Source: a bacterium
GTDB taxonomy: Bacteria; Hinthialibacterota; Hinthialibacteria; H5-UNCL2
Direction of reading: 5' to 3'
NCBI GenBank assembly: GCA_015075175.1
Contig: JABTUV010000004.1
Span: forward strand, 124,001-188,000
Length of the DNA: 64,000 nt
This document shows positions 1,658 through 57,236 of the stretch, one piece after another (position 1 is the first letter of the stretch; the number at the start of each line of letters is the position of its first letter). Under the pieces are notes generated by a model, which saw only the letters and a program-made list of their open reading frames with translations, did no database searches and was not told the DNA's origin. The position numbers and the translations under genes are program-made.

Positions 1658-4600
1658 ATGTCGTTTTCACTCCGTCTCTTATCACGTCCAAATCTCGTGG
1701 TCGCCGAAGAGGACCCTGCGGCGGATGCCTGACGATTCTCCTGGCGCCGTGGGCGGGCGCACCATCGTTCGTCACCGATTGCGAGCTGGTTCCGGTCGGG
1801 GAGGGCACGATGACGCTCAAAGTGTCCCTGTCAGGGCAACCGGACGACAACGTCACGGCCAGCGTGACGCGGGTGTCCGGCGATACCGACCTCTCCGTAC
1901 AGTCGGGCGCGACCATCTCGATCCCCAAGGGGTCGTGGGATACGCCGGTCAACGTGGTGCTGTCGGCCAGCGAGGATGCCGACAACCTCTGCTCGCGGGC
2001 TCTTTCAGATCACGGAAACCTGCCAACGGCATCGCCGCGGCGACGGTCGAGCACTGGAAGTGGACAACGACGCGACTACCGCGGTCGGGGGCGACATCAC
2101 CACCAACACGACATGGGCGGATACCACGCAGGCGTACTTGATTACCTCGACCGTGGTCGTCAAGGAGGGCGTCAAGCTGACCATCGCGCCGGGGGTGACG
2201 GTGCGGCATGAGAACAACGGCTTCTCGGCGTTTTCGCTGGAGGGCGACCTGGAAGCGCAGGCCGGGGCGACGCTCCTCATGCGTACGCGTGCCTATTGGA
2301 GCGAAAGTCTCCGCCGCCACGCCATCGTGGTGAAGGAGGGCGCGCAGGCGAGCTTCGCCGGCGCCAACGTGCTGACGACGGAGACGGACAGCTACAGCAC
2401 GGAAGGCGTGGACCGCTGGGCGGCGGCGGTGCGGGCCGAGGAGGGCAGCCAGATCGTCGTCTCCGGCGCGCTCTTCCAGTCCATGAACACCAACAGCAAC
2501 TGGCGCACCGGTTACGGCGTCTATATCGATCAGACCTTCGCCAGTTTCACCAACGTACCCGTAGAGAACCGGTTTCGCGGGTTCCGGGTAGCCGTCTTCC
2601 AGCACGCGGCCGACGTGCAGCAGGTGATCCAGCCGCTGGCAATGATCCAGTGCGAACGCAACCACATGTTCTCCGGCACGATCGTGCGCGACATGACCAT
2701 CCAGAACCACGACGTGCAGCTCTACGGCGATGTGACGGTGGAAGTGACGGCGACGCTGACGCTGGCGCCCGGCTCTGAACTGGAAACCGGCGAAGGCGAG
2801 CGGCTTTACGTCAAGGGGGCGATTGTGGGAACCGATGCGCAGGTGACCGCGCGCTCGCGCGCCTACTGGAACCTGAATGATCGGCGGCACGTGATCTATC
2901 TCATTAACAACGGCCGGGGCGAGTTCCAGCGCTGCCGCTTCGAGACCACGGAGACGAACGGCTACGCGACCGACGGCGACTCGAGTTACTGGGCGGCGGT
3001 CCTGTATGCGGAGGCGGGCGCGCAACTGACGGTGCGGGGATGCACATTCGTTTCGACCAATAGCATCAACAGCTGGCGCGTCGGTTACGGCATCCGGTTG
3101 GAGGGGGCGACGGCCGAGGTCTCCGACGACGGCGCCATCCGCAACAGCTTCACCGGCTTCCGCGCGGGAATCTACCAGTTCTTCAGCGGCGCCTCGCAGG
3201 AGATCGCCGTCTGCGATTTCAGCGACTGCGAGTGGAACGTGTGGATCAACGGCGACGTGATTCGCAACCAGACGCTGCGCAATTCCTCGACGCACGCGGT
3301 CGGCAGCTTCACGGTGGGAGCGACGTCCACGTTGACGCTGGCGCCCGGCAGCCAGCTTTACAAGAGCGAGGGCGTGCGCATCACCGTGCGCGGGCGGGTG
3401 GAGGCGGATTCGGCGCATTACGTGCCGCGCACGCGCGCCTACTGGAACGAGACGTCACGCCAGCACGGCCTGTACTTCGTGGAGGGCGGCGGCGGTTCCT
3501 TCGACGACTGCACCCTCACGTGCACCGAGGTGGACGGCTACGCCAACGACGGCAATACCAGCTACTGGGCGGCGGCGTTGTACGGCGACGCGACGGCGGA
3601 ACTGTCCATTCGCGGCTGCACCTTTGAATCGACCAACACGGTCAACAACTATCGCACCGGCTACGGCGTGCGGGTGGAGGGCGGCGCGATCACGCTGGGG
3701 GACCTTGCGGGAGCGATGACGCGCATGACGGGATTCCGCTGCGGCATCCCCCAGCAGTTCGGATCGCGCCCGCAGGAGATCTCACTTTTCCAGCAGAATG
3801 ATCTGCAGATCGGCATGTACCTGGTGGGAGACCTGGTGTCCGACGCGACGTTGGTGAACCGCAACCTGCGCATGATCGGCAACCTGACGGTGGGGCCGGG
3901 TGCGACGTTGACCATGACGCCGGGTAGCGACCTGTACGTGCCGGGCTACTCGCTGACGTTTCTCGTGCAGGGCGCGCTGGTGGCGCGCGACGCAACCTTG
4001 ACTTTGGAGACGCGCGCGCACTGGCAAGACAGCACGCGCCGACACGGCCTGTGGGTGCGCAACGGCGGGCGCTGCGACCTGGAGGACTGCCGTCTCGTCG
4101 CCACGGAATACGATGGTTACGCCAACGACAACAACTCCGATTACTGGGCCGGCGCCATCTACGCCGACAATACGGCCACGCTGCTGGTGCGCGCCTGCCG
4201 GTTCATTTCCACGCGGGCCACCAACAATTATCCGGTGGGCTACGGCATCCGGCTGGAAGGGGCCACGGCGGAGATTGCGGGCGGGGGCGTGCCCAGCTCC
4301 ATGCAGGGCTTTCGCACGGGCGTTCTGCAAGTGTTCAGCAGCAACCAGCAGAACATCGAGACGCTCGCGCTTGCCGACACGCCGTGGGGCGTGCGCATCC
4401 GCGGCACGCTCTCCGGCGATCTCACCCTGCGCAACGGCAACATGCTGGTGGACCGCGACCTGACCATTACCGGCAACACCACGCTCTCCGTGGCTCCCGA
4501 TTCGTATCTTTACACCAATGGTTATCTCATCACGGTGGATCCAGGATCGGGGTTTTCCATCGCGTCCTCGACCATGGAAATCTGGCGGCACGTGCGCAAC

Positions 4601-7600
4601 CGAGGGGTGGTCTCGGCGACGGACACCAAGTTCATCGTGCGTACGTATGCCCATCCCAATGCCAACGATCGGTTCTTCGGCTTCGACCTGCGCAACAGCA
4701 GCCAGTCCACATTCAGGAACTGCTCGTTTTACACCACCGAAACCCGCACGACCGGCGACAACAACGACTGGTCGGCGTTGTTCTATCTGGCGGACACGGC
4801 GCGGCTGGCGCTTTACGGCTGCTACGCGACCAACGCGCCCTCGGGGGCGGGGCACTACACGCGCTTTGTGGTCCGCAGCTTCAGCCAGGGCGCGCTCACG
4901 CTCCAAGACAGCATTTTCACCCAGAATTACATCGCGTTGCAGGTGGACGCGGTTCCCGGCCAGACGCTGGTGAAGAACAACGACTTCCACGGCAACACGT
5001 GGGCGATCATCAACAACACGCAGCCCGATTTCGTGGCGCGGGAGAACTGGTGGGGTTCGCCCACGGGTCCGACGCACATCGAGAATCCGGGCGGGAGCGG
5101 CGACCGCGTCTCGGACCGCGTGGATTACGGCCAGAGCAGCCTGGAGCAGCCGGAGACGCTCCTGTCGGTCCACAACCCGTTGGTGGGCCAGGAGCATAGC
5201 AACCTGATCGCCTCCGGCACGCAGCTGGGCGTGGAACTGATGGGCGTACGCTTCGAGCCTTTCTCCTCCAACATCGCGCAGGTCGCATTTCGCCTTACTA
5301 ATCGCTCGGGCGTGGAATGGGCGGACATCCGCAACTATCGTCTGATGGTGGACGCCAACGGCAACGGGACGATTGATCCGGGCGAGACGGTGCGGGTGGG
5401 TGGAAGCTGGTTGGGAGGGCAGGACGCCGGGACCTTTATCGTGCGTTTCGCGGGCGCCTTCGTGTCCCATGCCGATGCCACCCCCGCGTATATTCTCGTG
5501 GCCGACTTCCACAACATGGAGGCGGGCGACACGGTGACGGTCAACGTGGACGGCGCGCAGACGCAGGCGGGCGAACCGGGGGTGGGCGTGTCGGTGCTGA
5601 CCACGCCGGTGACACACGTGGCGGGGGCGCAGGTGTTCGTGATCGACCGGCTGGGAGGCCAGGTGCCCGACGCGCTCAATGGCTACGGTCGCCAGAACAA
5701 CGTGGCCCTGTGCGCCTTCCGCCTGACCGGCACGCAGCAGTCCATCAAGGTGCTTGAGTTCACGCTCACCAACCTGGTGGGCCTGTCGCGGGGGAACTTC
5801 ATCGCCGCCTCGCTCTATCTGGACGCCAACGGCGATGGGGTGCTGGACGCGGGGGATACACGCATCGGCGGGGCGACCGAGATCAGCATCAGCGGCAGCA
5901 CGGGCAAGATCGTCTTCGGCAGCGCCTTCAATACGGGTGGGAGTTACCTCTTGACCGCCAACCTGCGCGGCCTGGAAGCGGGCGACCACATGGTGGTCAA
6001 CCTGACGGGCGACAAGATTCAGACCGACGCGGTCGTACCCGTGTACGGGGCGGTGACACCCGCCGTTCACGACGTAGATATGCCTTACAGCCTCGCGCTT
6101 TCCGAGGTCTGGAACAAACCTACGCACTTCGGCCAGCAGATCGACCAGGCGCGGTACCCGCTCATGGGAATGCGGCTTTTGCCGCTCTCGCGCACGGTCA
6201 ACGGAATCACCCTGCGCCTCTCCGGCATCGTGGGCATTGGCACGAGCGAGATGGTCAATGCGCGCATTTATTGGGACAAGAACGACAACGGCGTCCTGGA
6301 TGCCGCGGACGAACCGGTTTCGAGCACGGGCGTGGTGAGCATGGCCGGCAATACGGGCAGCGTCCTCTTCGCCGCTCCCTTCATCGTTCGCGGCAACTAC
6401 ATCATCGCCGCGGACATGCGCACGCTGGCCAACGGCGACGAGATCACCGTGAGCATGGACTCCTCCGACGTGATCGTGCCGGAGGGCTACGTGGTGACGG
6501 GGGCGATTCCCGGCATTCGCTACGTGGTGCAACAGGGGGTGGCCGACAGCCGCACCCGCAACCAGCGCTGGACCCTCACTTTCCGCAGTCCCGGCGGCAC
6601 TTCCGTCAACGGACGCTTCAACAACGCCGGTGACAAGGTGATTCTGGGTTACGACACCGGTTCCGCGTGGATATACGACTCCCAGGCCAACGTGCCGCTC
6701 TTGATGCTGAAGGATCATTACGACCGGGTGGAGTACGCGGGCTTCTCCAGCGACGACTCGGCGGCCATCACGGTCACGCGCGACGGGGCGGTGTATGTCT
6801 GGGACTTGGCGACCGGCTCGCAGCGCTCCTCTCTCTTCTCCGATCTTTTGGTGACCAGCGCCGTGCCTTCGCCCGATTTTTCCAAGCTCATGGTGATCAC
6901 CGAGGGCAAGGGAATCCTCCTGGACATCGATAACGAGCAGCGGCTGTGGGAGTACGTGCCCGGGCAGGCGACGGTCAACGCCATCGCCTATTCGCCCAAC
7001 GGCGAGTACGTTTTGATCGGTTCCAGCGACAAGCGCGCTTATCTCTTGGACGCGGCCACGGGCGTGGAGGTGCGGCGCTTCATCGGCCATACCCAACCGG
7101 TGACGGCGGTCGCCTTCACCGGCGACGGCAGCACGCTCATGACCAGCAGCACCGACGCGGTCGTGCAACTCTGGGCGACGGACAACGGGCAGCCGCTGGG
7201 CGGACCGCCGATTACGACGATCTCGCTGCAAGGCCAGTCGTCACAAGGCGCGGCGGTGAGCCGCGACGGCAGTCGCGTGGCCATGGTCACGGGCAGCGGC
7301 GGTTCCGCGCAGATGCGCATGTTCGCCGCCAACGGTTTGGAGCTTTTCGCCGTCAATATTGATCAGAAGTCGGGCGGCAACTGGACGGGTTCGTTGGACT
7401 CGCTCTCCTTCGACGCGCAGGGCACGCGGGTACTCATCACCTCGGGCAACAACCCCTGGGGACGCAATGCCAGCTTCCGCGTGGACAACGGCGACTATCT
7501 GGTCAGTTGGGGGCCTCAGGGGCGCTTCTGGGGCAACCAGGATGGCCGTCCCCGCATGTCGCGCACCGGCGACCGCATTTTCATGATGACCGACTGGGGC

Positions 7601-26346: not shown

Positions 26347-26559
26347 TGTCATTTCGACCGACTTATTCTGTCATTTCGACTGACGTATTCTGCCATTCCG
26401 TCCGACGTATTCTGTTCGACCGACGTATTCTGTCATTTCGACCGACGTATTCTGTCATTTCGACTGACGTATTCTGTCATTTCGACCGAAGGGAGAAATC
26501 TTCTGCTCGCGCTGGACCCGCGGCAACGGCGGAAGATTTCCCTTCGGTCGAAATGACAG
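26347..26559. repeat. Family B element with tandem 22-base tail amplification
   Basis: About six copies of a TGTCATTTCGACCGACGTAT-TC unit (some shortened) run from 26347 to about 26475. They lead into one complete palindromic unit (TGTCATTTCGACCGAAGGGA ... TCGAAATGACAG) ending at 26559. Confidence 0.85.
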
Positions 26560-40902: not shown

Positions 40903-41700
40903 ATGCCCATCGAACTTGAACGCAGGCAATCGTTCGACGCCGTCGCGCAGGATTACCTCATGCACAGGCCGGGGTATCCTGAGGAGATGGTCGACGACAT
41001 CGTAGCTTATTCGCGCATCCCGCCGCGGGGCGCGGTGCTGGAGATCGGAGCCGGGCCGGGGCAGGCCACGGCGCCGTTCGCGGCGCGCGGATTCCGCATG
41101 ACCTGCGTCGAGCTGGGCGCGCGGTTGGCGCAAGTTCTGCGCGAACGCTTCGCCCACCTGGGCAACGTCACCGTTGTGAACGCGGCGTTTGAAGACTGGG
41201 ACGCGTCCGGGCACGCTTTTGATCTGGCCGTTTCAGGCAGTGCGTTTCACTGGATCGACCCGGTTGTGGGACTGCCGAAAGTCGCGCGCGCGCTGGTGGC
41301 CGAAGGGACCCTGGCGCTCTTCTGGAACCACCACCTGCCCGCCGATATGGACCTGTACGCCCGAATGCGTGAAGTTTGCCGGCGATGCGCGCCCGGCCGC
41401 TGGGAGAGGCGAATGGACGAGAATCCCGCCGCGCGCATGGAGGAGAAAGTCGCGCGTCGGCGCGCCGGCATCGATGCCTGCGGTCTGTTTTCACCGTTGG
41501 AAATCCGGCGTTATCCCTGGAACGCCAGCTATGATACAACTCAGTATCTTGAATTGATTTCCACTTACTCGGACCACATTACCATGGAGGCGGAGACGCG
41601 GGCGCGACTGATAACCGAATTGGCGCGGGTGATCGATGCGGCGGGCGGCCGCGTCGCGCGCGACTACTGCACCACGTTGTTTCTTGCGCGCCGGTTGTAG
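40903..41700 (+). CDS. Class I SAM-dependent methyltransferase
   Basis: 265 residues, start ATG 40903, four bases after the EIIA stop. Motif I AVLEIGAGPGQATAPF, acidic post-I residue in MTCVELGARL, then VVNAAFEDWD, and LAVSGSAFHWIDP, typical of small-molecule methyltransferases of the Methyltransf_11/25 type. The stop codon TAG is the first part of the family C repeat array (TTGTAGGGTGCGC). Confidence 0.88.
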   Translation: MPIELERRQSFDAVAQDYLMHRPGYPEEMVDDIVAYSRIPPRGAVLEIGAGPGQATAPFAARGFRMTCVELGARLAQVLRERFAHLGNVTVVNAAFEDWDASGHAFDLAVSGSAFHWIDPVVGLPKVARALVAEGTLALFWNHHLPADMDLYARMREVCRRCAPGRWERRMDENPAARMEEKVARRRAGIDACGLFSPLEIRRYPWNASYDTTQYLELISTYSDHITMEAETRARLITELARVIDAAGGRVARDYCTTLFLARRL

Positions 41701-42807
41701 GGTGCGCGCGGCGCACCGAGAATCCGGTCCAATCGGCGAGTCGCATAGGGACGCGGTGCGCCGGTTGTAGGGTGCGCACGGCGCACCGAGAATCCGATCC
41801 AAACGGCGAGTCGCATAGGGACGCGGTGCATGGAGGGTGCGAACCGAGAATCGATCCAATCGGCGAGTCGCATAGGGACGCGGTGCGCCGGTTGTAGGGT
41901 GCGCACGGCGCACCGAGAATCCGATCCAAACGGCGGGTCGCAAAGGGACGCGGTGCGCCGGTTGTAGGGTCACGGCGCACCGAGAAAATCAAACGGCGGG
42001 TCGCAAAGGGACGCGGTGCGCCGGTTGTAGGGTGCGCACGGCGCACCGAGAATCCGATCCAAACGGCGGGTCGCAAAGGGACGCGGTGCGCGGTGCGCAC
42101 CCTACAGGATGAAGCCGGCGTCGGCCCAGTCGGCGTGATCGCAGTTGATGCCGTCGCCGGCGTCGGTCGCACCGATCCAACGGCGAGTCAAGGGACGCGG
42201 TGCGCCGGTTGTAGGGTGCGCACGGAGGCGGATCAAACGGCGGGCGCATAGGGACGCGGTGCGATAAGGTGCGCACGGCGACCGAGAACCTGATCCAAAC
42301 GGCGGGCGGGTGACGCAGTGCGCGGTGCGCACCCTACAGGATGAAGCCGGCGTCAAGCCTCCAGGCGTGATCGCAGTTGATGCCGTCGCCGGCGTCGGTC
42401 GCAACCAGAATCCGATCCAATCGGCGAGTCGCATAGGGACGCGGTGCGCCGGTTGTAGGGTGCGCACGGCGCACCGAGAACCCGATCCAAACGGCGGGTC
42501 GCATAGGGACGCGGTGCGCCGGTTGTAGGGTGGGCACGGCGCACCGAGAACCCGATCCAATCGGCGGGTCGCATAGGGACGCGGTGCGCCGGTTGTAGGG
42601 TGCGCACGGCGCACCGAGAATCCGGTCCAAACGGCGAATCGCATAGGGACGCGGTGCGCCGGTTGTAGGGTGCGCACGGCGCACCGAGAATCCGATCCAA
42701 ACGGCGAGTCGCATAGGGACGCGGTGCGCCGGTTGTAGGGTGCGCACGGCGCACCGAGAACCCGATCCAAACGGCGGGTCGCATAGGGACGCGGTGCGCG
42801 GTGCGCA
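41690..42807. repeat. Family C tandem array 1 (~70-bp unit, about 13 units)
   Basis: Unit begins GTAGGGTGCGCACGGCGCAC and continues with CGAGAATCCGATCCAAACGG and CGCATAGGGACGCGGTGCGC. Starts at 41698, 41768, 41895, 41966, 42028, 42212, 42455, 42525, 42595, 42665 and 42735 show exact 70-base spacing in the intact runs; other copies are decayed. Two blocks (42101-42172, 42332-42407) repeat the 3' end of the neighbouring glycosidase gene. Confidence 0.92.
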
Positions 42808-45800
42808 CCCTGCGGGATGAAGCCGGCGTCGGCCCAGTCGGCGTGATCGCAGTTGATGCCGTCGCCGGCGTCGGTCGCAACCAGGCGCACCATCTTACCA
42901 CCGGGCGGGAGCGGCACGTCCAGGTGCCAGGCGTCGTTGGCGCGCACCAGGGGACTTTCGGCCAGCAGCTTGTCGTCCATCCAGACTTGAAATATCACGC
43001 TGGCTCCGCGTAGTCCTTCATCTCATCTATCGATGCCGACGACGGCGACGAAACGCTGATATTCAGGCTTCATGGGATAGGCGAGTTCGAGGTGGGCGGA
43101 TGTCCCCATACCCCGGGCAAACGTCTCGCCCCGCAGCGTGAGCGGTCTGGGACCGATGGAGCGGTCTTTCTTGACCGCTCCACCCCAGCCGGTCGTAGCC
43201 GTGGCAGGCTGGAGGTCGGAAATAAACACGTCGGGCCTGGGCGGGCGCGGCGGACGGCGATATACGCGGAGCCGGAGATGGAGGCTGGGCGTTGCACCGG
43301 AAAGGAAGGCGCGCGCCGAATGATGCGACTCTCGCTCACGGACAAGGGATGTTCATACTTTGGAAAGTTAGACTCGGTTCGCCGCCGTCGAGCGTAGTGA
43401 AGGGTCGCCCGGCCGGCGGTGCATTCGAGTCGCACTTGCTCGGATTCGTCGAAAATCGACCGGGCGCAGATGATGCGCGGGGCAGGGAGGGGAAGTTTGG
43501 TGAACTGCGCCGCCCCATGCACGTCGATGCCCTCCTTCCAGAGTTGCGCGAGGATTTGCAGTCGAGTCGTCTCCGTGAGAGTCAGGGGGCCGGTGTAGGG
43601 CACGGTCTGCGAGCTGGAAACCTCCTTCGGTAGAAGGCAGAGATGCGCATTGGGGATGGCCGTGCGAATCTCGACCTTTTGCTGGTCGAAGAAATACGTG
43701 GATGCGGGTTCCGTCCACACCTGCTTGAGCCGCAGCATGGCGCAACCCCGCGCGACGGGTACGTCGAGGAGCATGTCGTCGCCGCGGCGCTCGGCCTTGA
43801 TCTTGACTGCCTGAGTCGCGCCCGGATGCAGCGCGTCGACTTCAAATCCGTCCGCCTTGACCAGGCGGGACACGCCGCGCACGACGACACGGACGCGGTC
43901 CGTCTTGGCATGAATCACGGGCGCGACCAAGCCACCGGGAACTTCAAAGAGATTGGCCAGCGCCTCGCCCCCAAGGACCTCTATCACGTGTGGCGCCAGC
44001 ACCCACTTCTTGCCGCGCATCGCGTCCATGAGCGGTCCGTAATCGATGAAAAGCCGCTCGACGTCGGGATGGGGGAGGTTGGAGTGGTCGTTGCCGGGAA
44101 ACGGCGCCATGGGATAGCAGCCCATGTAAAGGTTTTGCTGCATGAAGGCGTCGGGCGCGCTCCAGAACTCCTCCTGGCGCGGTTCGATCCAACCGATCAG
44201 GGGCTTACGCAGGCACATGAACGCGCACTTGTTCAGATGTGAGGGTATGAACGTGAATTCGTCGAACATGCCGTCCACGTCGCTCATGAGATCCACGCGG
44301 CCCATGGCGTTGTTGATGTAAATGAGCTTGTCAGCCTCGTGGAAGCGGCGGCCCAGCTCGGCCATGATCTCCCGCCAGGACAGAAAGAGAGAGGCGACCG
44401 GGCGGTCCCACATCCAGCTTGCGCCGTCGTCGCGCTTGGGATTGTAATAGCGCAGCCAGTCGGTGCGATCGATGCAGATGCCCGCGCTGTCGGGCAGGCG
44501 CTTGATATGCGCGTTCGCCTGCTCCAGAAGAAAGCGCTGATAGTCGGATCCGCCGGGATCCATTACGACGCAGCGAAACCAGGAGTAGAAAGGGGACCTG
44601 CCGTCGGAGGCGTAGAGAATCCCGTCGGCGACCGCTTGTTGTATGAAGCTGCCGGAATCCTTCCATAGTTCACTCTTGTCGGTGATCCGGGGCGGGGGCA
44701 GGGGAAAGCGGAGATGGGCGCCGAATTCGGTGACGTTGAAATAATTGAGAACGAAAAAGCCCAGTTCCTTCATGCGGCGCGAGTAATCGGCCATCTGACG
44801 GATCGAGGTCGGCTTGTCGCGGAAATTGATCCAGGTTTCCTCTTCGGGAACCGGCGGCAGGAACATGCCCATGTAGGGAAAGTCAAAGCTGGCCTTCCAG
44901 TTGACGCGAAAGGACATCTGATGAAAGCGGGCGGCGTCCAGTTCACCCGCGTACCACGAGTAGGCGCCCGTACCGGCGACCTGGTGGGCTCTTGGATTGG
45001 GCGGGTCGAAGTAATCGGGATGCAGGGCGACCACGCGGCCCAAGGCGGCGCGGGCGTCGGCCTCGTGGGCGACCAGGCGGTACACGATGCGCACGGGACG
45101 GTCCCCGCCTATGCGATGATGTTGATGCGAGAAGACCAGGTTGCCATCCGAAGCAGTGTCAAGCGAGAGATCAAGGATAACGTCGTCAAGCGATTGAATA
45201 ATGGTGAAGGCCGCGTCGCGCGTGGCGTCCATGATGGTCGCCATGGGAATGGAGAACAGCCGGTGATAATTGAAGTGGAATCCCAGGTAGGGCATGGCCT
45301 CGTAGGAGGGTTGGCCGTACCAGAGCGACAAGTCGCGGAATGGCTGCGGTTGAAGAGGATCGTTCCAGCCGCGTTGTAGTTTGGGATCGACCCAAGAGGT
45401 CCAGAAGCCGAGGCCGGCGGCGTCGGCGATGCCGAGCCGGGTTTCGATCGAGCTGCTCCAGGGTTCGCCCGAGCCGGTGATTTCAAGCGTCCAGGTGAGG
45501 GCTTCCGGCGAACCTGAAAAGTGCTGGCGGAGGGTGCAGGCGTGGTCCGCGAGGGCGAGCCGACGAATAGTCTCGACGGCTCCGTCGGGCGCCTGGGCGG
45601 TCGCGGCCGTGCCGCCGTCGCGCACGCCGGCGATCGATGCGCCGCCGGCAACGCGCCAGACGCGGCCGGTGGCGTCGTGCTCGATGCCGGTAATCTCTCC
45701 GGCGTCGCTGAGCGTGAGGGTAAGCCCGCCGCCCTTGACAACGTATGCATCTGCCTGCATGGTCAGTACCTCCGGGACGATAAAGAACATGATAATGAGC

Positions 45801-45832
45801 ACCGGGCGGATCCGTCGCGGCGAGAGGTTCAT
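42808..45832 (-). CDS. Large secreted glycosidase-like protein with NPCBM domain (frameshifted 3' end)
   Basis: Start ATG 45832 with GAGG upstream and a signal-anchor segment (VLIIMFFIVPEVLTMQADA). An N-terminal beta-sandwich leads to a TIM-barrel region with FVLNYFNVTEFGAH, GICIDRTDWLRYYNP and VDGMFDEFTFIP, whose Asp/Glu residues are candidate catalytic groups. The fold resembles GH36/GH31-type clans but I cannot assign a family. Then come two chitobiase-C-like beta domains (VPYTGPLTLTETTRLQILAQ; ATLHY) and an NPCBM domain (MFISDLQPATATTGWGGAV, GTSAHLELAYPM, VIFQVWMDDKLLAES-like, then DAGDGINCDHADWADAGFI). Frame changes lie at about 43350, 43230 and 43020. The original stop is lost and the frame runs into array 1 down to 42102. 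Confidence 0.75.
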
Positions 45833-45898
45833 GGCGTGACCTCGCAATTGAAGGTTGATGAATCAATCCGGAAGGCAAGATAACGCGAACGGAGTCGG

Positions 45899-49045: not shown

Positions 49046-49158
49046 TGTCATTTCGACCGCAGGGAGAAATCCTTGGCCCTGGACCGGCGCCCCCGGTAAC
49101 GCTGGGAAAGATTTCTCCCTGCGGTCGAAATGACAGGATGGTCGAAATGACAGGATGG
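49046..49158. repeat. Family B element with repeated tail
   Basis: TGTCATTTCGACCGCAGGGA ... TCTCCCTGCGGTCGAAATGA, followed by two extra copies of a CAGGATGGTCGAAATGA tail. Lies between the kinase and oxidoreductase genes. Confidence 0.85.
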
Positions 49159-49169
49159 TCGCAACCGTG

Positions 49170-50543: not shown

Positions 50544-51369
50544 GGTAAAAAACCCCTTCCTTGGTTCACATGCTCAGGATAGCAGAGTTGTCGCGCCCAA
50601 GCGACTCAAAGAGGAACGCGAAGTTATTAGTTGTATTACTACAATGAATATCGCCCGGCTGCAAGGCCGGAAACGGGTGCAACTGTGCGGAACTGCTCCG
50701 GGAGGTCGTCCCGGTTAGGACGGAGCTGAGCTGTCATTTCGACCGCAGGGAGAAATCCTTGGCCCTGTACCGGCGCCCCCGGTAACGCTGGGAAGGATTT
50801 CTCCCTGCGGTCGAAATGACAGGATCGTCGAAATGACAGGATGGTCGAAATGACAGTTATTACGTCGGGCACGTTTTACCTGGCATGGAGACGCCGAGTT
50901 GCGCAGCGCCTTGCCCCGAGTGGGCCGAAGGCCGTATCGAGGGGTGCTGCGCCTGCAACCGCCAGAAAAACGGCATTAAGAGTACAGGCTTTAGCCTGTG
51001 ACAGCAAACTGAAGTTTGTACTGCGGGCAAAACCGCATGTTATATTATTGATGTTATTATCTTTTATGATATAAAAATACGTTGCAGCTTGGATAGTTTT
51101 TCTTGGCGGGGAACAAGACTCATGCTAGATTAACAACGTTACATAATATTCGTTTGTCCACCTGCCTTGTGGTATCGCATGGGTAGAGGCGTTTCGGGGA
51201 GCGGGACGCGGCTACATTCGCACAATCGGGACCGCCGGGATCGGCGGCGGATCTCACCAACAAGAAAACTGGGGGAAAACCGGACTCGCCCGGGCAAGGC
51301 GGGTCGCTGCTGTTGAACGCGGGTTCAAGAGCGAGCAACCGAAGTCGCATGAGGAGACAGTACGACCAG
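50544..51369. other. Long intergenic region with repeats and a promoter
   Basis: It contains a family B element (50732-50856), a degraded family F-like hairpin (about 50893-50960), and the inverted repeat AGTACAGGCTTTAGCCTGT / CAAACTGAAGTTTGTACT (50980-51022). The AT-rich stretch 51035-51110 carries TTGATG (51048-51053), 16 bases, TATAAA (51070-51075), a promoter candidate for the beta-helix gene. No gene is seen. Confidence 0.5.
50732..50856. repeat. Family B element with repeated tail
   Basis: Nearly identical to the 49046 copy in arms and centre (GGCGCCCCCGGTAACGCTGG), and again with an amplified tail of GTCGAAATGACAGGATGGTC-like copies. Confidence 0.85.
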
Positions 51370-54300
51370 ATGAGAAGCAGACGCTCCGAATGGATTCTGG
51401 CCGCGCTGGCCGCCATCGTCCTGGCTGTCGGAGCCGACGGCGCCACGTATTACGTAGACGCGGCGTTGGGCGACGACAACCATCCCGGAACCCAGGCCCT
51501 CCCGTGGAAAACCATCGCCAAGGTCAATGCGTTTACGTTCAGCGAGGGCGACGTCGTCTACTTCAAGCGCGGCGAGACCTGGCGCGAGGAACTCTCCAAC
51601 GACACCGGCCTTGCGGTCGTCACACACGCGGCCTACGGATCGGGTCCGGCGCCGCGCATCCTGGGCGGCGAGAACTACCCGTACACGGCGTTTTCGCTGC
51701 ACAACGGCTCCACCTATCGCACCGCGCACAGCGATCCGGCGGGAATCTTCTCCATCCAGAACCAGGCGGGCGATCATGGAGTCTGGTACGTGGCGCCGGA
51801 CGGGACCGTGACCATTCTCCGCCGCGGCAACAACACCAATCTGTCCGCCGGCCAGTGGTATTACTCCAGCGGCTGGCTCTATGTCAATCTGGGGGCGCCG
51901 CTCTCGTCCGGTTCGTTCGAGGTCGCCAAGCGTGTCAAGTGCGTCGAGGTCTGGACCGGCACGCGCTTCTACGATCTGGTCTTCCGTTACGGGCTGGACG
52001 GCAACTTCAACCTGGGTTGCAGCAACTTCATCTTCCAGAACTGCGAGTTCGCCTACAACGCTCAGGACGGCGTTGACACCGGCTGCAACGGCTCGGTCGG
52101 CCCGGGCTACTTCTACCGCTGCAACATCCACCACAATGGACGCTACGGCACGTACCATCATTACAGCTCGGTGACGGGCAAGTTCTTTCTGGACTACTGC
52201 TTGATCCACAACAACCGGCGCGACGGCGTGTTCGAGGACACCAACAACAACGTGGAGACCTGGGCCAACTGGGTGCGCAATTGCGCCATCTGGAACAACG
52301 GCGGCTGGGGCGTCAACGTGGACAACAACAACTTGACGCTGTTCTTCAAGGTGTACAACACGCTCTCGATCGCCAACGGTTCAGGTTCGTTCTACGCGAC
52401 CAACCATCCTGATCTCAACCTGATCGTGGGTCACAACGCGGCGGGCGGCGGGACGTATGGGGGCAAGTGGAGCGGGGCCAGCTATCGCACGACGGATATT
52501 TTGGGGGATCCCCTCCTGGTCAACCTGGCGGGGGACGATGTGCGGCTCTCCTCGACCGCGTCCCCCTGCTACAACGCGGGGGTGAGCTTGGGGTTGACCG
52601 CGGATTACGCAGGCGCGCCCATCGTGGGCGCGCCGGACGTGGGCGCCTACGAGTATGCGCCCCTGGGAACGCCGACTCCCACGCCCACGCCCACGCCGAC
52701 CGTGCCGCTGGGGGCGTGGCAGGTGCTCTGGAGCGCCGCCGGCCAGACGGGCGCGCAACCCAGCATCAATTCACTTACCGACCGTAATTATCGTAACTGG
52801 ATTCGCGGCCCGGCCATCACCGGCTCCGCCGCCTATGTCCGGTTGATCCTGCGCTCCATTTCGGCGACTACGGGAACCTTCGTCGACGCGGCGGCGGTGG
52901 GGGAACGCGCGAGTGAAGGCGATCCCTACGACTTCCAGGCCCCGCCCGCAATTGTGACCTTCGGCGGCGCGCCGTTCGTCATGATTCGCGCCGGCGAGTC
53001 GGTCGCCAGCGATCCCGTGGCGCTCACGTTCCAACCCGGCCGGGATTACATCGTTGCGCTGTATCTCGGCGGCAGTGAAGTGGTCGCTCAGTGGACCCAA
53101 GCGGGCGCGACCAACGCACACCACAAGATGATCGCGCAGAACGAGACGGGCGTCGTGGACGCGGCGGGATACTATCCGGCAAGCAGCATCTTCGTGCTGG
53201 AGGCCATCGAGGGCGGTTCCGGCGGCGACGACTCGACTCCGACGTGGACGCCCACGCCGACCTTCACGGCCACGCCCACACGCACCCCCACACCCACGGC
53301 GACGCCGACCCGGACGCCCACGCCGACCGCGACCAACACGCCGGGCGGAAGCGGCCATTGGGAAGTACTATGGAGCGCGTCGGAGCAAACCGGAGCCGCC
53401 GCGCCGGTCCTCAATTCGCTCTCCAACCGCAACTATCGCAACTGGATCAAGGCCGGCAGCATCAACGGCTCGGCGGCGTCGATCCGCCTGCGCCTACGCT
53501 CGGCCGCCCGGTATACCGCGACTCACGTCGACGCCGTGACGCTTGGGCGTCAGGCCGGCGCCGGCGATCCCTTCGACTTCGAGGCTGCCCCGCTGTCCGT
53601 GACGTTCGGCGGTTCGCCGTCGGTGACGGTTCCGCCCTCCAGCAGCGTCTACAGCGATCCGGTAGCCGTTGACTTTTCGCCTGCCGGCGACTGGCTGGTC
53701 GCGCTGTATCTGGAGGGCACGGAGCTGCTGGCGCAATGGAACCAGTGGGGCGCCGTGCACAGCCACGTCAAGATGATCGCCGTGGATGAGACGTCGCTGG
53801 CCGATGTGGAGAACTACGTCGAGGCCATGAGCATCTTCATGGTCGAGGCCATCGAAGGTTGGGTCGGAGACGGACCGACGTCCGCGGCAGAAGAGCCCGT
53901 CCGCGTGGGCGCGTTGCAGTCGAGACCCCACCTGGAGGAGGGAACGGCCTACTACGTCGATGCGACCCTGGGCGATGACGCCAATCCGGGGACCGAGGCG
54001 CTCCCTTGGAAGAGCATTGCGCGCGTACAGGCGCAGACCTACCTGGACGGCGATCTGGTTCTCTTCAAGCGGGGGGAGACCTGGCGGGAGGAGCTGTCCA
54101 ATGACACGGGGCGGGTGAAGGTCCTGCACGCCGCCTACGGCATGGGTCCACCTCCGCGGATTCTGGGGAGCGTGAACCGCTCGGCGACCGAGTTCACACT
54201 CATCTCCGGGGCGGTTTACGCGGCCAGCCACACGGACCCGGCGGGAGTGCTGGGGGGGCTTGACGCCGTGGGCGACCACGGCGTTTGGTTTTTGAGCAGC

Positions 54301-55946
54301 GGCGGCGCGGTTACCTCGCTGGTGCGCGCGGCAAGCGAGAACGTCGCTCCGGGTGAGTGGTTCTTTTCAACGGACACGCTTTACGTCAACCTCGGCCAGA
54401 CCCTCTCCGAAGGCGAATTGGAAATCTGCGCGCGTCCCAAGTGCGTCGAGGTCTGGACCAGCACGGACTTCCGCGACCTGGTTTTTCGCCACGGCCTGGA
54501 CGGCAACTTCAACCTAGGATGCAGCGACTTCACCTTCGAGAATTGCGAGTTCGCCTACAACGCCGAGGATGGCATCGACACCGGCAGCAACGGTTCGGTG
54601 GGGCCGGGGCGGTTCTTTCGCTGCGACATCCACCACAACGGGCGCCACGGCATCGTGCATCATTATTCGTCGATCACCGGTAAGTTTTTCGTGGACGCCT
54701 GTCTCGTGCACGACAACGGCGGCCACGGTCTCTATGCCTACACGAACAACAACGTGGAGAGCTGGGCCAACTGGGTGCGACACACGACCTTTTGGAACAA
54801 CGGCGGCTGGGGCGTCTACGCTGACAACGATGGGGCCACGCTGCATTTCAAGGTGTACAATACGATCTCCGTGGACAACGGCATGGGGGCGTTTTATGCG
54901 GTGGATCATGCGGAAATGTTTCTATACGCGGGCCACAATGCGCCCGGTTCGGCGGGAGCATACGGCGGCAAGTGGAGCGAGGCGGCCCATCGGATTAACG
55001 ACGTGGTCGAGGACCCGCTCTTCGTCGCACCGGATGACGCGCGGTTGGCGGCCGGCTCGCCATGCATCAACGCGGGCAGCGAGCTGGGGCTGAGCCTCGA
55101 TTTCGGCGGTCGTCCCATCCCCTACGGCGAGTTTACCGACATCGGCGCGCATGAGTGGTATCCCCTGCCGACGCCGACCCCGACTGCGACTCCCACTTCC
55201 ACGGCGACGGCGACCCCGACGCCGACCCACACGGCGACGGCCACGCCGACCTACTCGCCCACGGCGACCTGGACGGAGACGTTTACGCCGACGGCCACAT
55301 TTACTCACACGCCGACTCCCACTCCGACCCACACGCCCTCGCCGACGCCCACATATACGGCGACCGAGACTTCGACGGATACGCCCACGGCGACGGCGAC
55401 CGCCACGCCCACGTTCACTCCGACGGCGACTCCGACGCATACGGCGACCGCGACCGCAACTGCGACGCCGACGGACACATCTACGCCCACGCTGACGCCG
55501 ACGGCTACTTACACCATCACGCCCACCCATACGGGCACTCCCACGCCGACGCCGACGGTGACGCCGACGAGACGTGGACAGCTTCGCCGACGCCGACCGC
55601 CCGTTTACGCCCGAAAGTACGCCCACCCCGACGGCGACCGGCACGGCGACCGCGACGCTGACTCACGCCGACGCACCGACACGCCGACGGCCACGTTTAC
55701 CCCAGCAGCACCCCCGCCGACGCCCAAGGCGCCGATTTCAATCATGACAATCGCGTCGACAGGGCCGATCTCCCTGTATCTCTTGCGGCAGCTGCGGACA
55801 GGTGGAGGCGTGCGGATCTGAACGGAGACGGACGGCGGGATTATCGGGATTGGCTGATGTTGGCGGCGTGGTGGGGACGGACGACTCGTCCGCGGCTGAC
55901 TGATCTTAATCTTAATCGTGATCTTGCTCGTAATCGAGGCGCGTAG
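51370..55946 (+). CDS. Secreted beta-helix protein with duplicated modules, PT linkers and dockerin-like end
   Basis: Start ATG 51370 (alternative 51349); signal peptide [17 protein letters not shown]. Two homologous modules of about 440 residues (51430-52680 and 53940-55160) share YYVDAxLGDDxxPGTxALPW, [16 protein letters not shown], [20 protein letters not shown] and IHHNGRxGxxHHYSSxTGKF. This is a parallel-beta-helix architecture with possible lyase-like activity, but no catalytic set is identified. Between them are two copies of a beta-sandwich ([40 protein letters not shown]) and PT linkers. After a long TPT linker (from 55165) the frame shifts at about 55570. The other frame gives [14 protein letters not shown] and [20 protein letters not shown], a dockerin-like pair, and ends at TAG 55944, which is part of a family C repeat. 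Confidence 0.78.
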
Positions 55947-56447
55947 GGTGCGCATTGCGCACCGACGTGGAGCGCCGTCGCTGCCCGTTCGCCGCCCTCG
56001 TGCTCGTAATCGAGGCGCGTAGGGTGCGCATTGCGCACCGACGTGCAGCGCCGTCGCTGCCTGTTCGCCGTCCTCGTGCTCGTAATCGAGGCGCGTAGGG
56101 TGCGCATTGCGCACCGACGTGGACGCCGTCGCTGCCTGTTCGCCGTCCGGCGGTGCGCGGTGCGCACCCTACGGCGAGCCAGTGGAGCGCCGTCGCTGCC
56201 TGTTCGCCGTCCTCGTGCTCGTAATCGAGGCGCGTAGGGTGCGCATTGCGCACCGACGTGCAGCGCCGTCGCTGCCCGTTCGCCGTCCGGCGGTGCGCGG
56301 TGCGCACCCTACGGCGAGCCAGTGGAGCGCCATCGCTGCCCGTTCGCCGTCCGGCGGTGCGCGGTGCGCACCCTACGGCGAGCCAGTGGAGCGCCGTCGC
56401 TGCCCGTTCGCCGTCCGGCGGTGCGCGGTGCGCACCCTACGGCGAGC
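55926..56447. repeat. Family C tandem array 2
   Basis: Repeats of GCTCGTAATCGAGGCGCGTA then GGGTGCGCATTGCGCACCGA (starts near 55927, 56009, 56081, 56216), mixed with inverse units (GGTGCGCGGTGCGCACCCTA then CGGCGAGCC; 56152, 56293, 56356, 56420). The unit includes the last codons of the dockerin gene, just as array 1 includes the ends of its neighbours. Confidence 0.9.
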
Positions 56448-56846
56448 CAGGAAGCGTTGGATGCAGGCGAGGGTTTCCGCGCTGATGTGGTGCTCGATGC
56501 CTTCGCTGTCCTCCTCGGCGACCTTGGCCGAGACGCCGAGGGCGCGGAGGAACGCAACCACAATGCGATGGCGATTGCGGGTCTCCTCGGCCAGGCGCCG
56601 GCCGCGCGCCGTCAGGCGCAGGGAGCGGTACGGCTCGGATTCAATGAGGCCCGCCTTCTCCAGCCGGCGGGCGGTCTTGGTGACGGTGACGCTGGTCACG
56701 CCCAGGCGGGCCGCCAGGTCCACCGTGCGCGCCTCGCCCGCGCCTCGATCAGCTCGGCGATCAGCTCGACGTAGTCCTCTCCCGTCTCGCCGGTGTGGTC
56801 GCGGCGCGCGCGCGCGTAGGGTTGTGGGGCCTCTTGGAACGCACCA
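56373..56846 (-). CDS. mntR: Mn-responsive DtxR-family regulator MntR (frameshifted; reads into array 2)
   Basis: Joining two frames gives FQEAPQPYARARRDHTGETG, EDYVELIAELIEA (MntR D8/E11-type metal ligands), VDLAARLGVTSVTVTKTARR (HTH), PYRSLRLTARG, then RHRIVVAFLRALGVS (His ligand) and AEEDSEGIEHHISAETLACI (Glu and His ligands). This is the full MntR metal site. The indels lie at about 56730-56840. The native end is near QRFLA (56447); the open frame runs on through array 2 units to 56373 because no stop falls in this frame. It is divergent from the mntABCD operon, which it most likely represses with manganese. Confidence 0.85.
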   Translation of the reverse strand, partial: WCVPRGPTTLRARAPRPHRRDGRGLRRADRRADRGAGEARTVDLAARLGVTSVTVTKTARRLEKAGLIESEPYRSLRLTARGRRLAEETRNRHRIVVAFLRALGVSAKVAEEDSEGIEHHISAETLACIQRFLARRRVRTAHRRTANGQRRRSTGSP

Positions 56847-57076: not shown

Positions 57077-57200
57077 TGTCATTTCGACCGCGGGGAAATC
57101 CTGTGTCCCTCGCCCGGCCTGCGAAACGCTGGGAAAGATTTCTCCCTGCGGTCGAAATGACAGGATCGGTCGAAATGACAGGATCGGTCGAAATGGCAGG
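57077..57200. repeat. Family B element in the mntA leader
   Basis: TGTCATTTCGACCGCGGGGA ... TCTCCCTGCGGTCGAAATGA with an amplified CAGGATCGGTCGAAATGA tail. The last copy is 37 bases upstream of the mntA start. Confidence 0.85.
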
Positions 57201-57236
57201 ATGGTGCGAAGTGACGGATGGATGGCGGAGGACGAA

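Follow-up and report, generated by a model that had tools for sequence, protein, structure and literature searches.

The locus described here raises two questions: what kind of element has been multiplied between two convergent genes, and whether one of these genes now runs on through the copies and encodes a protein with a repetitive tail. In the window (the whole 64,000-nt stretch of DNA that was analysed), a gene for a class I SAM-dependent methyltransferase (40903..41700, + strand; Pfam Methyltransf_25/11) faces a gene on the - strand whose main ORF, as defined from the ORF list and a frame comparison, comprises 925 aa in frame 1 modulo 3 (43070..45847). This ORF matched no Pfam family, and the name glycosidase is the label of a preliminary description made from the sequence alone; an NPCBM domain (PF08305) is encoded in another frame at 42810..43232 (-). 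That description had counted about 13 copies of a 70-bp palindrome-containing unit between the two genes, and our inspection of the sequence and its repeats agreed, giving 13-14 copies at positions 41689-42880. It had further proposed that an anonymous, local palindrome picked up the two gene ends through slippage or unequal exchange, that the stop codon of the glycosidase was then lost, and that the protein runs on through the array.

The palindrome proved to be neither anonymous nor local. The core of the 70-bp unit, GTAGGGTGCGCACNGCGCACC, is a REP element whose head reads GTAG, for which 20 matches were found in the window at up to 3 mismatches (0.04 expected). The exact palindrome pattern, GTAGGGTGCGCNNNGCGCACC, matched the genome 203 times, and the reversed control pattern 0 times; in the window itself the same REP family forms a second array at 55925-56450, so that the element is not confined to the site between the convergent genes. 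The GTAG head was present in 126 of the 158 REP matches that allowed 2 mismatches. The family consensus folds into a 7-bp stem with a 3-nt loop, the stem starting directly after GTAG, and a REP paired with an inverted REP folds into one long hairpin (z = -6.7). Rfam gave no match anywhere in the window, and the exact REP was absent from all 40 other genomes compared, most of them distant.

A gene for a REP-associated tyrosine transposase (RAYT) was found on contig C3 at 4106-4680 (-), with a score of 171 bits against the NF047646 model (cut-off 80); its extent is also given more narrowly as 4223-4675. It sits between + REPs at 3906-4052 and - REPs at 4708-4867 of the same family, which is the arrangement of a REPtron (a RAYT flanked by inverted REPs), here predicted from sequence. 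Relatives of this RAYT that are 42-52% identical and belong to other phyla, with Verrucomicrobiia, Haliea, Electrothrix and Truepera among their hosts, adjoin very similar or identical GTAGGGTGCGC...GCGCACC palindromes (for example at loci L077, L128, L130 and L142); the palindrome of the Haliea locus (L130) is identical. The unit is therefore a GTAG-type REP, since it combines a GTAG-plus-palindrome structure, a high copy number and a predicted cognate RAYT with inverted REPs. Because its core is the genome-wide GTAG REP, which also lies in inverted orientation on either side of the RAYT, the 41689-42880 array, with REPs in both orientations and repeated inter-REP segments, is a BIME. Two further Y1 transposase-like genes (on contigs C46 and C5) were considered as the cognate enzyme and rejected, as they score below the RAYT cut-off and lack copies of the present REP in their vicinity. 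The one on C46 (locus L009, 1-3327, of the same genome, G000) has a different repeat on both sides, which translates as KLGADPNF, and this repeat may represent a further REP family.

The array is a mosaic. With A for the unit on the methyltransferase side and B for an inverted REP joined to the NPCBM end, its layout is approximately [A x6, B][A', A'', B'][A x6, B], and the 70-bp period spans 41688-42091 and 42400-42799. The sequence CGCCGGTTGTAG starts 11 of the units, and ACGCGGTGCG is present in 13 exact copies, besides degenerate units at about 41830 and 42265. By repeat inspection, the left block (41689..42091, +) consists of six 70-bp units, each made up of CGCCGGTT, the REP and a 44-bp spacer; two of the six are degenerate, within segments of 127 bp and 63 bp. 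Its first REP, GTAGGGTGCGCGCGGCGCACC, occupies 41697..41717 (+), as located by the REP-core search and the family consensus hairpin. The same search, together with the sequence, placed an inverted REP with the outermost copy of the NPCBM 3' end at 42085..42172 (-), and another with a middle, altered copy at 42317..42405 (-); both terminate in CTG-TAG, and two degenerate units lie between them in the sequence (42203..42316, +). The right block (42400..42799, +; repeat inspection) is built of nearly identical 70-bp units (94% matches), and the inverted REP attached to the glycosidase follows at 42793..42813 (-), its head reading GCAG, not GTAG, with loss of the stop. In minus-strand 5'-to-3' direction, the three NPCBM 3'-end blocks run from about 42170 to 42102, 42402 to 42334 and 42878 to 42810. 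The preliminary description had placed these blocks correctly, but the middle one does not carry the same peptide: it encodes DHAWRLDAGFI instead of DHADWADAGFI, and lies inside a long ORF that is read there in another frame. The codons that it had given for the block ends also held, namely ATC CTG TAG in the outer two and ATC CCG CAG in the attached one, with no TAG after GFI in the copy at 42808.

The capture of host sequence that it had postulated was likewise seen, in that short 3' ends of both genes have been copied. On the methyltransferase side, 9 nt 5' of the REP are common to the first and later copies, and the two outer NPCBM copies have 17 nt in common 5' of the REP; at the sampled loci most other arrays have 0-6 nt in common there, and a few have 8. 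The stop codon of the methyltransferase (TAG, 41698-41700) coincides with the TAG within the GTAG head of the first REP (offset 0). The 11 units that start with CGCCGGTTGTAG had been read as beginning with the last codons and the TAG of this gene; since GTAG REP heads sit at many other gene ends in the genome, the TAG is most likely REP sequence and not something captured from the gene, and the gene-derived part of these units is best read as only the approximately nine bases preceding it. No methyltransferase relative that would provide an array-free allele was found in the GTDB contigs.

The relation between REPs and stop codons was then analyzed in a sample that comprised the first 100 exact REP sites of the listing (contigs C1-C15) and the window. 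At 44 of the 78 leading GTAG-head REPs, the TAG terminates an upstream frame of 100 codons or more, whereas among other GTAG sites the figure is 161 of 1122 (Fisher p = 2e-16); some of the upstream frames counted may be spurious, and the control rate of 14% reflects that. When the threshold was raised to 300 codons, a frame was closed by 26 of the 78 leading REPs and by 36 of the 1122 other sites. Near the RAYT relatives from other phyla, a weaker tendency of the same kind was observed (16 of 91 versus 91 of 1530, p = 2e-4). It could be argued that the REPs were inserted beside stop codons that already existed instead of bringing the TAG with them. IS200/IS605-type enzymes insert beside short target sequences, and two of the genome's three NPCBM paralogs, those whose sequence extends to a stop, end 2-7 residues past the domain, so that the stop of the glycosidase would have stood at a native-like place. 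Against this, REPs that close no long frame carry GTAG too, and the conserved GTAG head is what TnpA-REP recognises, with cleavage at CT or CA (PMC8266576). We therefore regard prior stops as a possible but somewhat doubtful origin of the association, and the supply of the TAG by the REP agrees with the report that GTAG REP termini "often provide" the ORFs beside them with a TAG stop (Di Nocera 2013, PMC3733652).

In the second array, revealed by the repeat and REP-core searches (55925..56450), units of 76/64 bp lie between the end of a dockerin-like gene (+) and a regulator gene (-), and 3' ends of the flanking genes have been copied here as well: 18 nt and 10 nt are in common with the flanking gene ends, the stretch of about 18 nt being the last bases of the + gene. 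The regulator, MntR/DtxR-like (PF02742; 56373-56723, -), has a frame that crosses the first REP, is closed by the TAG of the copy after it, and thus includes about 21 array-encoded residues. Among the frames that read through REPs, this is the one checked with Pfam support; most of the others listed look like spurious GC-rich frames and were set aside. The dockerin-like end (55740-55946) is in a different frame from the 1502-aa beta-helix ORF before it (51313-55821, +), which has Thr/Pro-rich repeats, and the frameshift lies in or near a low-complexity stretch. Another short repeat family, GGTCGAAATGACAGGAT / TGTCATTTCGACC, forms small tandem groups in the window at 26347-26489, 49123-49161, 50810-50856 and 57149-57219.

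Does the glycosidase, then, continue into its array? The loss of its stop, as had been claimed, is real. Because the two NPCBM paralogs stop 2-7 residues past the domain, the ancestral stop very probably stood directly after GFI, as judged from these sequences, and CAG is the derived state, since the paralogs stop there and TAG is what the head of this REP family has as its consensus. The further claim, that the protein runs on through the array, found no support. An expressed tail would be consistent with the CCG-CAG at the attached copy, with an ORF on the - strand (42102..42998 in the ORF list) that is open up to the outermost TAG, and with the frame of the MntR/DtxR-like regulator, which indicates that short REP tails occur in this genome. 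However, when a continuous frame from the enzyme into the array was sought, it was found to be broken twice. The main ORF terminates at 43070 in a frame other than that of the NPCBM domain (frame 2), which places one or more frameshifts between about 43390 and 43240. The domain itself is in one frame save for an in-frame TGA at about 43018-43020, which splits the PF08305 match into positions 4-69 and 78-136; read through this single TGA, the match has an E-value of 1e-36. The ORF 42998-42102 begins downstream of the TGA and is thus discontinuous with the main ORF. Moreover, its openness is automatic, given that the 70-bp unit has no stop triplet on the glycosidase strand, and hence an open frame across the array is no evidence of coding; 22% of shuffled units were equally free of stops. 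Since the frameshift and the TGA already break the glycosidase frame upstream of the array, the repetitive tail is probably not made, assembly errors at these two breaks apart, and in the sequence as given the loss of the stop is without consequence for the enzyme. As the palindrome is also a genome-wide REP, an anonymous palindrome that captured gene ends by slippage and, after the stop loss, gave rise to an expressed glycosidase tail is a very improbable account of the region. We suggest the regulator gene as a better candidate for a real REP-encoded tail than the glycosidase, judging from its predicted frame.

The frame breaks themselves might reflect decay of the gene or be consensus errors. 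In its broadest form, the latter explanation holds that the locus is an artefact of local assembly or consensus, with errors near a repeat accounting for the frame breaks and for part of the irregular units, and it is favored by the fact that both REP arrays of the window adjoin frame-broken genes (the glycosidase and the 51313-55821 ORF) and by a genome completeness of 84%. The array, on the other hand, is interior to a 433-kb contig, its units differ by substitutions, arrays similar to it were found elsewhere in the genome, and an artefact would not create 203 REPs and a matching RAYT. Parts of the array could be misassembled, but as an explanation of the locus an artefact is unlikely. We give hardly any credence to the more specific proposal that only the frame breaks are errors and that the enzyme has a tail of approximately 240 residues from the REP array in three rotating frames. 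Predicted array-tail peptides include TASLCDSPFGSDSR and AHPTTGAPRPYATR, and were this reading true, changes in REP copy number would alter a protein C-terminus. A search of the other 13 genomes of its class for glycosidase homologs found none.

Taken as a whole, the region is, with a probability of about 0.9, a locally expanded BIME of the genome's GTAG REP, which arose from facing REPs that closed both genes and in which the attached head was later mutated. The starting point would have been two opposed REPs at the facing 3' ends of the convergent genes, the TAG of each closing its gene. Tandem amplification would then have multiplied each REP together with a short stretch of flanking DNA that contained the final codons of the adjoining gene; RAYT-linked processing could have brought this about, and so could slippage or unequal exchange at the hairpins. 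At a later stage, the head of the glycosidase-attached REP would have changed from GTAG to GCAG, so that the NPCBM frame was no longer ended by that copy. This order of events is the one suggested by a single genome. A RAYT-driven rolling-circle model has been proposed for the growth of BIMEs, slippage and recombination alone seeming insufficient, although the catalysis by RAYT is a hypothesis in that work (PMC2817692).

Published GTAG REP/BIME arrays (PMC2817692; PMC3733652) resemble the one described here in having the GTAG head followed directly by a short palindrome, in their hundreds of copies, in occurring as solitary, paired and tandem elements at gene 3' ends, with TAG as stop, and in their captured 3' ends. 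Both the frequent supply of a TAG stop by GTAG REPs and the ability of BIMEs to take up a gene's 3' end are thus already in the literature; four BIMEs had captured the 3' ends of rayt genes (Nunvar 2010, PMC2817692). Here, in contrast, both convergent neighbours and not a rayt gene have been captured, and one attached head has mutated with loss of the stop. A REP-containing repeat can also alter or extend a C-terminus, as with QMITE2, a repeat with a GTAG REP that Coxiella burnetii Dugway has at the 3' end of enhC (PMC5896051), but that is a single insertion, whereas here there is a tandem array at a gene that was already frame-broken. The array is therefore a fresh instance of a known element, in which the capture of both neighbours' 3' ends is unusually complete. 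The finding is otherwise ordinary, apart from the figure for stop supply: more than 50% of the leading REPs in the sample furnish a likely stop codon, a strong figure where the literature says only "often". For this genome, the locus illustrates clearly how the 3' ends of genes are remodelled by RAYT-linked REPs, which supply stops and copy neighbouring coding ends as an array grows.
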